Of a stretch of DNA of 61,304 nt, positions 2,574 through 8,010 are shown piece after piece. Within the stretch, counting starts at the first letter, position 1. Each line of letters opens with the position of its first letter. A program made the position numbers and the translations under genes. Where the stretch lies: the NCBI RefSeq assembly GCF_030732865.1, contig NZ_JASHKB010000023.1, positions 1 through 61,304 on the forward strand. Reading direction: 5' to 3'. Source of the DNA: Roseitalea sp. MMSF_3546 (lineage in GTDB: Bacteria > Pseudomonadota > Alphaproteobacteria > Rhizobiales > Rhizobiaceae). Under the pieces are notes generated by a model. It was given only the letters and a program-made list of their open reading frames with translations, ran no database searches and had not been told where the DNA came from.

Positions 2574-3560
2574 TCACCCGGCCGCATCGCGCCGGACATG
2601 GGTGTCGAGCCAGACCAGAAGATGGGCCGTGGCCGGCCCTGCGACGCGGTCGTTCAGCGTCTCGTGCCGGCCATCGGGATAGATCGCCACCGTGACGTCG
2701 GCAAAGCCGGCGCGCCGCAGCCGTTCGGCCTGGGCGCGCACCGCCGCCCCGTTCGCCGTTGCCGGATCCTTGCCGCCGCCGACCAGATGAAAGGGCAGGG
2801 CACGGGCGCGCGCCGATGCGCCTGCGACATCCGCGCCCCGGCGCATCATGGCGAACACCGCCTGCCACAGACCGACCGAGGGGTCCCATCCGCACAGCGG
2901 ATCGGCGATGTACGCATCGACCTCGGCCTCGACATGGCTCAGCCAGTCGAACGGCGTGCGCCCGTCGCCGGCCGCCTTCGCCCAGGCGGCAAACGTCAAA
3001 CGTGGCAGCAGGCGCGAGGGCACGTCCGAGCCGAGGCGAAGCCGTTCCCAGCCAAGCACGATGCGCGCGGCATGCGCGGCGATCCCGCGCGCAAGGTTCG
3101 CGTTCCAGACCGCCACGCCGGCCAGCCTTTCGGCATGGGCGAGCGCGTGGTTCATGGCGATCAGCCCGCCCATGGAATGGCCGAACATGACCACAGGCAG
3201 GCCGCCATGGGCAGCGCGCGCATGGTCCTGAACCGCCGCGCAATCGGCCATCACCTTGCCGATCCCGTCGCCGCCAAGCGAGAACACGCCCGGCGGGGCG
3301 TCCGGCGCGCGCGTGCCGCCATGGCCGCGATGGTCGTGTGCATACACATGCCAGCCCGCCGCGGCCAACGCGCGCGCGAAGCGGCCATAGCGCGCCGCGT
3401 GCTCGGCGACCCCGTGATTGACGTGCACGATGCCGCGCGCCGGCGCGGCCGCCGCTTGCCGGTAGACATTCAGCCTCGCCCCGCTCGGGGCGGCGAGTTC
3501 GAGGCGGTCTTCGAACGCGGTGTGCGTCCTCGCGTCCCGTGAGCCGGTCTTATCTGTCAT
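2574..3560 (-). CDS. Alpha/beta hydrolase, monoacylglycerol lipase/lysophospholipase type
   Basis: A serine hydrolase of 328 residues. The nucleophile elbow GHSMGG places Ser129. The acid is probably Asp265 (GGGKDPAT) and the base His299 (YPDGRHE). The [12 protein letters not shown] and HDHRGHG segments match the lysophospholipase/monoglyceride lipase branch (PldB-like, 'serine aminopeptidase S33'). Substrate is probably a lipid ester or lysophospholipid; this is family inference. The reading frame stays open 46 codons further upstream, but the ATG at 3560 is preferred because the extension is low-complexity and would run into the divergent ettA promoter region. It is transcribed away from ettA. 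Confidence 0.85.
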
Positions 3561-3681
3561 GCTGTCCCGTCCATGCGCCGGCCTCGCCGGCGCCCGACGG
3601 GCCGCCGCCGATTGCCCTTGCCCGGCGTTTCGCCTAGAACGCGCCCGATTTCCCATCATCGCGATCCAAGGAGCCTCGCGC

Positions 3682-5331
<1,650 letters not shown>

Positions 5332-5430: not shown

Positions 5431-5554
5431 AGAAAAAACCGGACCGCTGGGAGGAGGTAGCGGCCCGGTTCAAACTGTCTGCGAGGGCGGGAGGAGGTGC
5501 CCTCGCAAAGCGCGTCTCCGAAGCAACTGGGAGGAGGTAGTTGCCCCTTCGACA
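5431..5554 (-). ncRNA. Small RNA with three anti-Shine-Dalgarno hairpin loops (cuckoo/CcsR-like)
   Basis: Read on the minus strand this is three stem-loops in a row, each with the identical 10-base loop ACCUCCUCCC. The stems are 6 bp (GCAACU/AGUUGC, 5523-5544), 8 bp (GCGAGGGC/GCCCUCGC, 5481-5506) and 10 bp with one G-U pair (CCGGGCCGCU/AGCGGUCCGG, 5439-5468). The third is followed directly by UUUUUU (5433-5438), so it doubles as an intrinsic terminator and fixes the strand. The loop carries the CCUCCUCCC motif of the CcsR (Rhodobacter) and cuckoo RNA families, which is complementary to Shine-Dalgarno sequences and implies trans-acting translational repression. The predicted length is about 122 nt, the 5' end being inferred from the promoter. 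There is no open reading frame of substance. An AbcR-like assignment is the main alternative. Confidence 0.85.
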
Positions 5555-5560
5555 CCGCCA

Positions 5561-5588
5561 ATATGGGACAGCCGGCGCCGTTCTTCAA
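5561..5588 (-). promoter_or_regulatory. Predicted promoter of the small RNA, heat-shock (RpoH)-like
   Basis: On the minus strand TTGAAG (bases 5588-5583) is followed after 16 bases by CCATAT (5566-5561). These resemble the alphaproteobacterial RpoH elements (CTTGAA and CCATNT) more than the housekeeping -10. Transcription would begin near 5554, about 10 bases before the first hairpin. CcsR RNAs of Rhodobacter are known to be RpoH-dependent, which fits, but the call is by eye. Confidence 0.5.
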
Positions 5589-5604
5589 TTGCATTTTGTG
5601 CAAT
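5588..5604. promoter_or_regulatory. Candidate LysR-type regulator box upstream of the small RNA
   Basis: The sequence ATTGCATTTTGTGCAAT is a perfect 6-bp inverted repeat with a 5-base centre and contains a T-N11-A core (TGCATTTTGTGCA), the usual form of a LysR-type binding site. It abuts the -35 element of the small-RNA promoter and lies about 250 bp from the end of the LysR gene that follows. Binding by that regulator is inference. Confidence 0.45.
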
Positions 5605-5850
5605 GCACATATGCTGGAATGCATGGCTTGTGCGGCGATTTGTAGCGGATGGGCCGGAAATCCAACAATTCCTGCCCAGCAATGCGACACTGCGCCGCAT
5701 GAATGTGCATGGCGCGACGTGAACTGCCTGCCCGTCGGGCCGCCGTACGGTGCGCTGCAGCAACACCGGAGGCGGATCGGCCGCCTGGCCGGTTCGCTTG
5801 CCGGCGGCATCGGCGTGCGGGTCCGCGCCGGCCGCCCCTGGGCGGCATGT

Positions 5851-6750
5851 TCAGTACTCCCAGCCGCGCGCCTTTGCGAACAGGAAGTCGCGAAACGCCT
5901 GCAGCCGCGCCGAACCGCGCATCGTCTCGGCATAGGCGAAATAGGTGTCGAAGGACGGCAAAGCGACGTTTTCGATCACCCGCACCAGCCCCGCGTCGCG
6001 CTCCACCGCATAGTCGGGCAACATGGCGATGCCCACCCCGCGCTGAACGGCCCGCTTGATCGACATGATCGAGTTGATTTCCAGCGCCGCGCTGCGCGGC
6101 GGCTTGCCTTCTTCGCGGCCCAGCGTCAGCAGCGAATTGAGTTCGAGCAGGTAGCTCGGCGCCGGCTCGCCGAAGGCGATGATGCGGTGCTTGTCGAGGT
6201 CGTCGATCGTCTTGGGCGCGCCGAACCGGGCGATGTAGCCCGGCGAGGCGTAGACGTGGAAATGCACCGTGAACAGCCGCCGCTGGATCAGATCGGGCTG
6301 CTGCGGCTGGCGCAGCCGAATGGCGCAGTCGGCCTGGCGCTGGTTGAGGTCGAGCTCCTCGTTGGAGAGCACGAGCTGCACCTGGATGTCGGGATAAAGC
6401 TCCAGGAACTCCTGCACCCGATAGGTCAGCCAGCCCGAGCCCAGCCCGACCGTGGTGGTGATCCTGAGCCGTCCGGTCGGCCGGTCGGTCGCCTCGGTCA
6501 GCTTGGCCTTGACGTTTTCGAGCTGCAGGAAGACGTCATGCGCGGTGCGAAACAGCATTTCGCCCTGTTCGGTCAGCACCAGCCCGCGCGCATGGCGGTT
6601 GAACAGCGGCGCGCCGATATCGGCCTCCAGCGCCGAGACCTGGCGGCTGACCGCCGACTGGGAGATGTGCAGCCGTTCGCCGGCCTGCGTGAACGAGCCG
6701 GCCTGCGCGGCGGCGTGAAAGACACGCAACTTGTCCCAGTCGAGCGGCAT
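5851..6750 (-). CDS. LysR-type transcriptional regulator, VtlR/LsrB-like
   Basis: A LysR-family regulator of 299 residues. The N-terminal winged helix-turn-helix is clear (LRVFHAAAQAGSFTQAGERLHISQSAVSRQVSALE, about residues 7-41, here only described), followed by a substrate-binding domain to the C-terminus. Its position directly downstream of trxB matches LsrB of Sinorhizobium and VtlR of Brucella/Agrobacterium, which control envelope functions, oxidative stress and small RNAs; orthology is inferred from recalled synteny. The ATG at 6750 is chosen because the family begins MxLDWDKLRVFH; an upstream ATG adds 16 unrelated residues. The gap to trxB is 66 bp, so readthrough from trxB is likely. 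Confidence 0.85.
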   Translation of the reverse strand: MPLDWDKLRVFHAAAQAGSFTQAGERLHISQSAVSRQVSALEADIGAPLFNRHARGLVLTEQGEMLFRTAHDVFLQLENVKAKLTEATDRPTGRLRITTTVGLGSGWLTYRVQEFLELYPDIQVQLVLSNEELDLNQRQADCAIRLRQPQQPDLIQRRLFTVHFHVYASPGYIARFGAPKTIDDLDKHRIIAFGEPAPSYLLELNSLLTLGREEGKPPRSAALEINSIMSIKRAVQRGVGIAMLPDYAVERDAGLVRVIENVALPSFDTYFAYAETMRGSARLQAFRDFLFAKARGWEY

Positions 6751-6816
6751 TGCCGGACCCTTCGGCTCCTGTGTCGTGCCGGCGCGCCGGCCCGGCAATC
6801 GATTGTCCCAGATGGC

Positions 6817-7797
6817 CTATTCGGCCGCTTCCATCTGCCCGGCTTCCTGCGCGGCGAGGAATTTCTCCGCCTCCAGCGCCGCCATGCAGCCCAGCCCCGC
6901 CGCGGTCACGGCCTGCCGGTAGACATCGTCGGTCACATCGCCCGCCGCGAACACGCCCGGCACCGAGGTGACGGTCGAATCGGGCGCGGTCCACAGATAG
7001 CCGTTCGGGCGCTGCTTGAGCTTGCCCTCGAACAGGTCCACCGCGGGCGAATGGCCGATGGCCACGAACACGCCGTCGACCGCCATCTCGGTGACCGCGC
7101 CGGTCTGCACGTTCTTCAGCCTGACGCCATTGACGGCCGCCGGCAGCGCGGGATTGGTCTTGGCGCCCGTGATCTCCTCGACGACGCTGTCCCAGACGAT
7201 GGCCACGTTGTCCTTCTTGAACAGCCGGTCCTGCAGGATCCTTTCGGCGCGCAACGCGTCGCGCCGGTGCACCAGCTTGACCGATCTGGCGAGGTTGGCC
7301 AGGTAGAGCGCTTCCTCGACGGCCGTGTTGCCGCCGCCGACGACCACCACGTCCTTGTCGCGGTAGAAGAAGCCGTCGCAGGTGGCGCAGGCCGAAACGC
7401 CGAAGCCCTTGTAGGTCTGCTCGCTGTCGATACCCAGCCACTTGGCCTGGGCGCCGGTGGCGATGATCAGCGTGTCGCCGGTATAGACCGTGCCGCTGTC
7501 GCCGATCGCGCGGAACGGGCGCGCGTCGAGATCGACCTCGGTGATCACGTCATGGCGCATGTCGGTGCCCACATGCTCGGCCTGCAGCCGCATCTGCTCC
7601 ATCAGCCAGGGACCCTGGATGACGTCGGCGAAGCCGGGATAGTTCTCCACATCGGTGGTGATCGTCATCTGCCCGCCTTCCTGCATGCCGGCGACAAGCA
7701 CCGGTTCGAGCATGGCGCGCGCGGCATAGATGGCGGCGGTGTACCCCGCCGGCCCCGAGCCGATGATGAGGACGGGGGTATGGACTGTCTGTGGCAT
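6817..7797 (-). CDS. trxB: Thioredoxin-disulfide reductase
   Basis: A flavoprotein of 326 residues that reduces thioredoxin with NADPH. The FAD-binding GxGxxG motif (IIGSGPAGYTAA) is at residues 11-22, the redox-active CATC at Cys137-Cys140, an NADPH-binding GGGNTAVEEALYL segment follows, and the C-terminal FAD motif GVFAAGDVTDDVYRQA is present. Length matches the low-molecular-weight bacterial enzyme. The ATG at 7797 follows an AAAGGG ribosome site; the frame continues upstream without family similarity. It is the first gene of a probable trxB-lysR unit. Confidence 0.95.
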   Translation of the reverse strand: MPQTVHTPVLIIGSGPAGYTAAIYAARAMLEPVLVAGMQEGGQMTITTDVENYPGFADVIQGPWLMEQMRLQAEHVGTDMRHDVITEVDLDARPFRAIGDSGTVYTGDTLIIATGAQAKWLGIDSEQTYKGFGVSACATCDGFFYRDKDVVVVGGGNTAVEEALYLANLARSVKLVHRRDALRAERILQDRLFKKDNVAIVWDSVVEEITGAKTNPALPAAVNGVRLKNVQTGAVTEMAVDGVFVAIGHSPAVDLFEGKLKQRPNGYLWTAPDSTVTSVPGVFAAGDVTDDVYRQAVTAAGLGCMAALEAEKFLAAQEAGQMEAAE

Positions 7798-8010
7798 TGT
7801 CCGCCCTTTCTTTGCACTTCTGCGGCTCACCGGGCGCGAATGTAACGACCCGCGCCCGAAGGCCATTTCATGTCCGCCCGGATATAGGTGTTGTCGGCTG
7901 GCAATACCGCCCCTCGCTGCCCTTTTCGGCCGGCTGTACGAGTCTAGCCACAGCAAATGCCAAAAGCGCCGTCCGCGATCAAGCCATGACGGCTCGATGG
8001 GACAAGCAGG

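Follow-up and report, generated by a model that had tools for sequence, protein, structure and literature searches.

The window, the whole 61,304-nucleotide stretch of Roseitalea sp. MMSF_3546 DNA that was analyzed, contains a small RNA gene on the minus strand between a gene for a LysR regulator and a convergent gene for an ABC-F protein. The features of this locus are as follows:

3520..5331, plus strand: ettA (ABC-F protein), convergent, on the other side of the RNA (NF008775, 940.9 bits against a cut-off of 599)
5432..5557, minus strand: ar14-type small RNA gene (Rfam RF02344 match and fold)
5433..5471, minus strand: hairpin 3, the intrinsic terminator, with loop ACCUCCUCCC at 5458-5449 and a U run at 5438-5433
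5480..5507, minus strand: hairpin 2, with loop ACCUCCUCCC at 5498-5489
5520..5547, minus strand: hairpin 1, with loop ACCUCCUCCC at 5538-5529
5561..5566, minus strand: -10-like CCATAT, putative, from reading the sequence
5583..5588, minus strand: -35-like TTGAAG, putative, likewise read from the sequence
5602..5614, minus strand: LsrB/VtlR box GCATATGTGCATT, a full match to GCAT-N3-TG-N3-T
5851..6762, minus strand: lsrB/vtlR-type LysR regulator gene (LysR domains in Pfam)
6817..7956, minus strand: trxB, thioredoxin reductase, upstream of lsrB (TIGR01292, 389.9 bits against a cut-off of 343.45)

The name lsrB is based on position, with trxB upstream and an sRNA downstream as described for vtlR (PMC7486931), and on orthologues that adjoin ar15. 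The RNA lies on the lsrB strand and follows the lsrB stop codon at a distance of about 300 nt. Open reading frames cross the RNA region in several frames, and we gave none of them weight as a coding explanation.

Read on the minus strand from about 5554 to 5432, the RNA folds into three hairpins in series, each of which presents the same 10-nt loop, and the last of which ends in the U run of a terminator. On both points, the original prediction from the letters alone was correct. The likely transcript, with a 5' end placed by the promoter-like elements, would run from about 5554 to 5432 and measure about 123 nt. The minimum-energy fold of positions 5560-5425 has an energy of -66.3 kcal/mol (z -5.5; 0 of 200 shuffles equally low) and includes all three hairpins, with hairpins 1 and 3 nested in extra outer helices. 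Its stems comprise 9, 9, and 13 pairs, or 9, 11, and 13 with 2, 1, and 2 G-U pairs when uninterrupted pairing is counted instead, and are thus longer than the 6, 8, and 10 bp with one G-U first proposed. Counting both strands, the 4.05 Mb genome contains 24 copies of the motif CCTCCTCCC, and three of these fall in the RNA; with the rate taken from the other 21 and local composition ignored, the Poisson chance of finding three within 124 nt on one strand is ≈6e-12, so chance is excluded as an explanation of the three loops.

Across the five genomes of the genus, all 15 loops read ACCTCCTCCC, while the stems vary, hairpin 1 most of all, yet keep their pairing. The expectation that the loops are conserved and the stems free to vary as long as they pair therefore holds in close relatives; a loss of pairing and loop identity there, the outcome that would have spoken against it, is not seen, because the 15 loops are identical and the variable stems still pair.

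A scan of the whole window with 4227 Rfam families gave a single match at the cut-offs, to ar14 (RF02344; 64.8 bits against a cut-off of 58.8, covering model positions 1-123 of 123). The RNA had been proposed to be an anti-Shine-Dalgarno RNA of the cuckoo/CcsR type on the minus strand, and the covariance-model search bears out the type through ar14; membership in CcsR1 (RF02791) itself is rejected at 33.4 bits against a cut-off of 65.3. Pseudomon-1/ErsA (32.9 against 50 bits) also stayed below its cut-off and was taken as a cross-match, as was Scr3202 in loci L112 and L113 (38.1 against 52 bits). The ar15 model of the AbcR RNAs (RF02345) found no match at E 0.001 in the window's genome, where 69 of 69 candidates were scored. 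The AbcR of one relative (G029) scores 37 bits with ar14 and 51 bits with ar15 at the same place, so the two models overlap.

The design itself is known. SmelA075 was described in 2011 with three hairpins, the loop CCUCCUCCC in each as anti-Shine-Dalgarno sequence, and variable stems (PMC3927594), and the same three-hairpin CCUCCUCCC design was reported in 2023 for ar14/NfeR1 of Sinorhizobium meliloti (PMC10746234). Since these descriptions match, three equal loops are the known ar14 design, and the terminator loop, put forward originally as a third copy, is already part of ar14 in print and in the Rfam model. What unites ar14/NfeR1 (Smr14C2, SmelC397), the SmelA075 group, and the cuckoo RNAs with the window RNA is three CCUCCUCCC-loop hairpins, a last hairpin that is the terminator, and variable stems. 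The RNA is thus one more representative of a family whose working principle is already known, not a new kind of RNA, and this accounts for the headline of the original prediction.

NfeR1 has three redundant motifs, is activated by LsrB and repressed by NtrC, and silences ntrBC (PMC10746234); two transporter mRNAs and ntrB are reported as silenced (PMC10746234, PMC8844928, PMC7143759). Like NfeR1, the window RNA has its own promoter-like region with an upstream LsrB box and a predicted length of about 120 nt; unlike NfeR1, it adjoins lsrB. The CcsR RNAs of Rhodobacter sphaeroides share the CCUCCUCCC loops but arise by processing of a DUF1127 gene transcript (PMC10253847), whereas the window RNA has its own promoter-like region and no DUF1127 gene directly upstream, the identified flanking genes being lsrB and ettA. 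Presence of such a gene does not prove its expression, because only one of six NfeR1-type copies in S. meliloti was reliably detected by Northern blot (PMC7143759).

The window's genome holds further copies. A second ar14 match over the cut-off (L009, G000:C33:62028-62144), with one exact CCTCCTCCC, is not stand-alone but lies directly behind a small ORF that resembles a DUF1127 gene. A third match is weak and below the cut-off (L011, G000:C63:115537-115685; 37.7 bits); it has one exact CCTCCTCCC loop and a plain terminator. Two other ar14-type loci (L039 and L040) also lie behind a small ORF and carry two exact motifs each, against one in L009, and some of the loops in these copies are shorter variants. 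CcsR RNAs are reported behind a DUF1127 gene (PMC10253847), and the C33:62028 copy comes closer to that arrangement than the window RNA does.

Relative to a transcription start at 5554, the LsrB/VtlR box would lie at about -60 to -48. The consensus GCAT-N3-TG-N3-T occupies -61 to -49 in PabcR1 (PMC8844928), a similar position, in contrast to -72 to -57 in NfeR1 (PMC10746234). TTGAA and CATATT are kept in all six aligned loci of the clade, three of which are near-relatives within the genus. An exact box stands 77 nt before the first loop in 5/5 genus genomes and 79 nt before it in Oricola and Ahrensia sp.; in Ahrensia marina (L115), the box deviates by one letter. Among AbcR loci whose box is exact, the first loop follows after 75 to 78 nt, the exceptions being two odd pairings (L055, 84 nt; L122, 91 nt), and some AbcR loci lack an exact box. 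The LsrB-type regulator probably activates the RNA. A perfect inverted repeat, ATTGCA-N5-TGCAAT (5588-5604, minus strand), spans from within the 3' end of the LsrB box to the -35 region and may be part of the regulator's site.

These elements bear on whether the RNA is independent at all. It could instead be the terminator region of lsrB, that is, its 3' UTR, or a decoy (sponge) without targets, as its location about 300 nt behind lsrB on the same strand would allow and as the copies behind a small ORF (L009, L039, and L040), arranged like CcsR behind its DUF1127 gene (PMC10253847), might suggest. We consider this quite improbable: the LsrB box, -35, and -10 are conserved at constant spacing between lsrB and the RNA, and the AbcR RNAs of the same slot as well as NfeR1 are separate transcripts in print (PMC10746234, PMC8844928, PMC7486931). 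No observation points towards the sponge role raised originally.

Less ordinary than the RNA itself is its location, which, like the LsrB box, had no part in the original prediction. Agrobacterium has the gene order trxB-vtlR-abcR1-abcR2 (PMC7486931), and abcR1/2 of S. meliloti adjoin lsrB (PMC8844928). Because both keep AbcR at lsrB/vtlR, the window RNA occupies the AbcR place: like AbcR, it lies downstream of trxB-lsrB/vtlR with a VtlR/LsrB box. It resembles AbcR1/AbcR2 (ar15, regulated by VtlR/LsrB) in its position after trxB-lsrB, its strand, the box and its distance, the first loop, the transporter-type predicted targets, and, in four of the five genus genomes, the outer terminator stem. 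It differs in that hairpin 2 and the terminator have sequences of their own in AbcR, whereas here they repeat the loop of hairpin 1, and in that AbcR forms a tandem pair in S. meliloti and A. tumefaciens (PMC8844928, PMC7486931), whereas one RNA was found here.

We compared the coordinates of ar14, ar15, and LysR matches by hand to see what fills this slot in 61 genomes. At E 0.001, ar14 matches occur in 45 of these (over the cut-off in 37) and ar15 matches in 29; the LysR orthologue was found in 55. In all five genus genomes, ar14 fills the lsrB slot with scores over the cut-off (60.2-66.2 bits). The other four gave no ar15 match at E 0.001 under stricter filters, with 50 of 62-84 candidates scored; because the searches of relatives for ar14 and ar15 ran under strict filters and covered some of the candidates, against 69/69 for ar15 in the window's genome, these absences are not firm. 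Among the 37 genomes of the family, including the window's own, 22 have ar15 within 1.5 kb downstream of lsrB on the same strand at E 0.001, with 18 of these 22 matches over the ar15 cut-off, and one further slot match, below the cut-off, appears at the order level (G046). In three genomes (G008, G020, and G030), ar15 lies farther from lsrB, and in two (G009 and G035), no LysR match was found. Five (G010, G024, G026, G027, and G031) have neither ar15 nor ar14 in the slot; in G031 (L061), just 124 bases follow lsrB before the contig ends, leaving the slot out of view. G042 (L202) has a weak ar14 match of 30.6 bits by lsrB. The order-level relative G041 (L209) shows three exact CCTCCTCCC motifs 1388-1477 nt downstream of lsrB, with an ar14 score of 31.6 bits, below the cut-off, and an LsrB-like box that precedes the first of them by 84 nt. 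This array is perhaps an independent multi-loop RNA near lsrB; if it is counted as slot, the multi-loop state arose more than once.

Named loci widen the picture. All 80 have trxB upstream of lsrB, and the slot contains three exact motifs in five of them: a Phyllobacteriaceae MAG, Oceaniradius stylonematis, a Roseitalea MAG, Oricola nitratireducens, and an Ahrensia sp. MAG. The slot sequences of the first three are identical to those of G004, G002, and G001, and these are probably the same genomes. Ahrensia marina has two exact motifs and a weaker first loop, UUCCUCCC. Its RNA scores 74.2 bits with ar14; those of Oricola (49.4) and Ahrensia sp. (52) are below the cut-off. ettA, at ≥50% identity, is found in the flanks of 5 of the 80, all in the multi-loop clade; in three of these it follows the RNA closely, and in two it lies at a greater distance.

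A tree of LsrB joins the eight multi-loop rows in one clade (support 100/99) beside a Mesorhizobium/Aminobacter group (95/83 for both together). It includes 66 of 130 proteins, leaving aside L112-L114 and 61 further named loci, mostly Mesorhizobium; the label "triple" was assigned by hand, with A. marina (L115) included despite its UUCCUCCC loop and G041 unlabelled. In most of the sampled family the lsrB slot is occupied by AbcR, and in one clade by an ar14-shaped RNA; this is the point that our analysis adds. No description of such an exchange was found in the parts of the open-licence literature that were searched. If true, it suggests that the sibling regulators AbcR and ar14 are interchangeable when controlled by LsrB and that evolution alters how many anti-Shine-Dalgarno loops such an RNA carries.

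How the exchange came about can be read in two ways. The AbcR gene itself may have been remodelled, keeping its promoter and first loop while hairpin 2 and the terminator gained the same loop; to this we give close to an even chance. Alternatively, an NfeR1-type RNA, or its body alone, may have moved into the lsrB slot with loss of AbcR, a serious possibility that we rate a little short of even. Slot, strand, and the order trxB-lsrB-sRNA are the same as for AbcR, and the distance from box to first loop in the clade (77-79 nt) is near the 75-78 nt of AbcR loci with an exact box, L055 and L122 apart, all of which argues for remodelling. Replacement is favored by the three identical loops and the Rfam match, both ar14 features, and by the other ar14 copy that exceeds the cut-off in the window's genome, which lies behind a small ORF instead of standing alone.

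The promoters of the clade are closer to 20 AbcR promoters than to the upstream regions of unlinked ar14 genes in 7/7 loci, by mean and by maximum. In this first comparison, AbcR and clade rows were chosen by a GCAT 74-80 nt before the first motif, 23 ar14 rows were taken at a set distance, and the ends of the RNAs were trimmed differently from group to group, choices that could both bias the result. A repeat with equal fixed cuts covered promoters and terminators (ar14 rows L016 and L038 gave no terminator) and kept the promoter result at 7/7 with 24 ar14 rows, and also against three box-bearing ones. Among the ar14 rows are copies that follow a small ORF and lack a promoter of their own, and L115 was kept outside the promoter alignment and the promoter, body, and terminator comparisons. 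The result speaks against replacement, though a body could have moved under an existing promoter. Moreover, in 3 of the 32 ar14 loci read (L013, L020, and L023), an LsrB-like box precedes the first loop by 76 nt, and ATCATC occurs near the 5' end in two (L012 and L023); because some ar14 loci share these traits, promoter likeness alone is no proof. The window RNA itself begins with GGTGTC and not ATCATC, a point against remodelling.

The bodies and terminators are divided. Loop-masked bodies favor AbcR by mean in 4/7 and ar14 in 3/7, with the best single score from ar14 in 5/7. For the terminator, the best single score is ar14 in 7/7 under unequal and equal cuts alike, and the mean favors AbcR in 3/7 with unequal and 5/7 with equal cuts. 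The best single scores for body and terminator, mostly ar14, thus favor replacement. On the other side, the outer terminator stem AGCCGG, present in 53 of 56 AbcR rows and otherwise rare, recurs in the four other genus genomes, which thereby share the AbcR stem of the sister clade, and GCCGGRYC..GRYCCGGCTTTT has 35 matches in the 61 genomes, nine of them in an lsrB-slot RNA; one more is in another ar15 match (G035) and two lie ≤300 nt downstream of lsrB (G051 and G059). This stem is absent from the window's terminator, which has AACCGG, and from Oricola and Ahrensia, so it holds for four of the eight clade members.

With promoters favoring AbcR, bodies split, best terminator scores favoring ar14, and AGCCGG differing within the clade, remodelling and replacement come out nearly equal. 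That AbcR was converted in place, once, in the Oceaniradius/Oricola/Ahrensia clade, from one motif to three identical loops, that of the terminator among them, with the LsrB promoter kept, is a proposal that we put forward tentatively, as doubtful rather than probable. Were it true, it would be a natural change of an sRNA between Rfam families, would place AbcR and NfeR1 on one evolving locus, and would allow the value of having more or fewer motifs to be tested.

Should the loops bind ribosome-binding sites, the best targets are expected to be genes in which GGGAGGAG closely precedes ATG. The pattern GGGAGGAG-N3-11-ATG has 29 sites in the window's genome against 3 for the reversed pattern. 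By Pfam, 14 of 24 such genes encode ABC-transporter parts, compared with 2 of 24 controls with AAGGAGG-N3-10-ATG (one-sided Fisher p 0.00025): nine binding proteins (L214, L215, L217, L219, L226, L228, L229, L235, and L236), three permeases (L222, L223, and L231), and two ATPases (L230 and L238), the two control genes being L241 and L267. The 29 matches gave 24 distinct ORFs of ≥80 aa, leaving out L218, L221/L227/L233 (short), and L239 (the same gene as L240); the controls were the first 30 of 57 AAGGAGG matches in contig order (8 for the reversed pattern), of which 6 were too short and 24 were used. TctC (L220) and TRAP receptors (L244 and L258) were excluded from the ABC count. When all binding-protein transporters are counted, the figures are 15/24 and 4/24 (p 0.0013), and with ORFs lacking a Pfam match removed, they are 14/22 and 2/20 (p 0.0004).

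A second genus genome, G003, shows a weaker enrichment (6/16 versus 1/17, p 0.035). Its test set came from 20 matches (2 reversed), with 4 too short and 16 used, and its control set from 30 of 59 matches (8 reversed), with 12 too short and one duplicate left out and 17 used. Pooling both genomes gives 20/40 versus 3/41 (p 1.7e-5). Just four of the 24 genes from the window's genome closely match (86-97% identity) one of the 16 G003 genes: a short-chain dehydrogenase, a binding protein, an ABC ATPase, and an AMP-binding enzyme. The dehydrogenase gene (L225 and L274), presumably for the acetoacetyl-CoA reductase PhaB, has GGGAGGAGAACCAATCATG before its start, identical in both genomes, and judged by this sequence is a possible conserved non-transporter target.

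The enrichment is a statistical hint that fits the transporter bias reported for AbcR and NfeR1 (PMC8844928, PMC7143759); it is based on complementarity and gene class, and transporter genes could favor GGGAGGAG sites for other reasons. Because the genome has a second over-cut-off ar14 and a weak third, the predicted targets are not assignable to this copy in particular. The RNA probably binds the Shine-Dalgarno sites of several mRNAs, as originally supposed.

We hold with considerable confidence that the locus encodes a stand-alone, trans-acting ar14 RNA, activated by LsrB, that blocks mRNAs of ABC-type nutrient transporters at their Shine-Dalgarno sites and takes the place of AbcR. A sigma-70 promoter next to lsrB, activated by LsrB, would transcribe the RNA; each ACCUCCUCCC loop, complementary to GGGAGGAGGU, would base-pair with an mRNA at its Shine-Dalgarno region and keep ribosomes away from it, and the three loops would be interchangeable. 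The main targets would be mRNAs of ABC-type nutrient transporters, and in the multi-loop clade the RNA would fill the place held by AbcR in related genera. Structure, family match, LsrB box, position, conservation, and the enrichment of transporters among the best-matching ribosome-binding sites are observed; transcription, LsrB activation, pairing, repression, and loop redundancy are what we infer.

Several relatives carry tandem ar14-type units (L020, L025, L029, L030, L031, L032, L036, and L037), with three to six exact CCTCCTCCC motifs in the stretch read.
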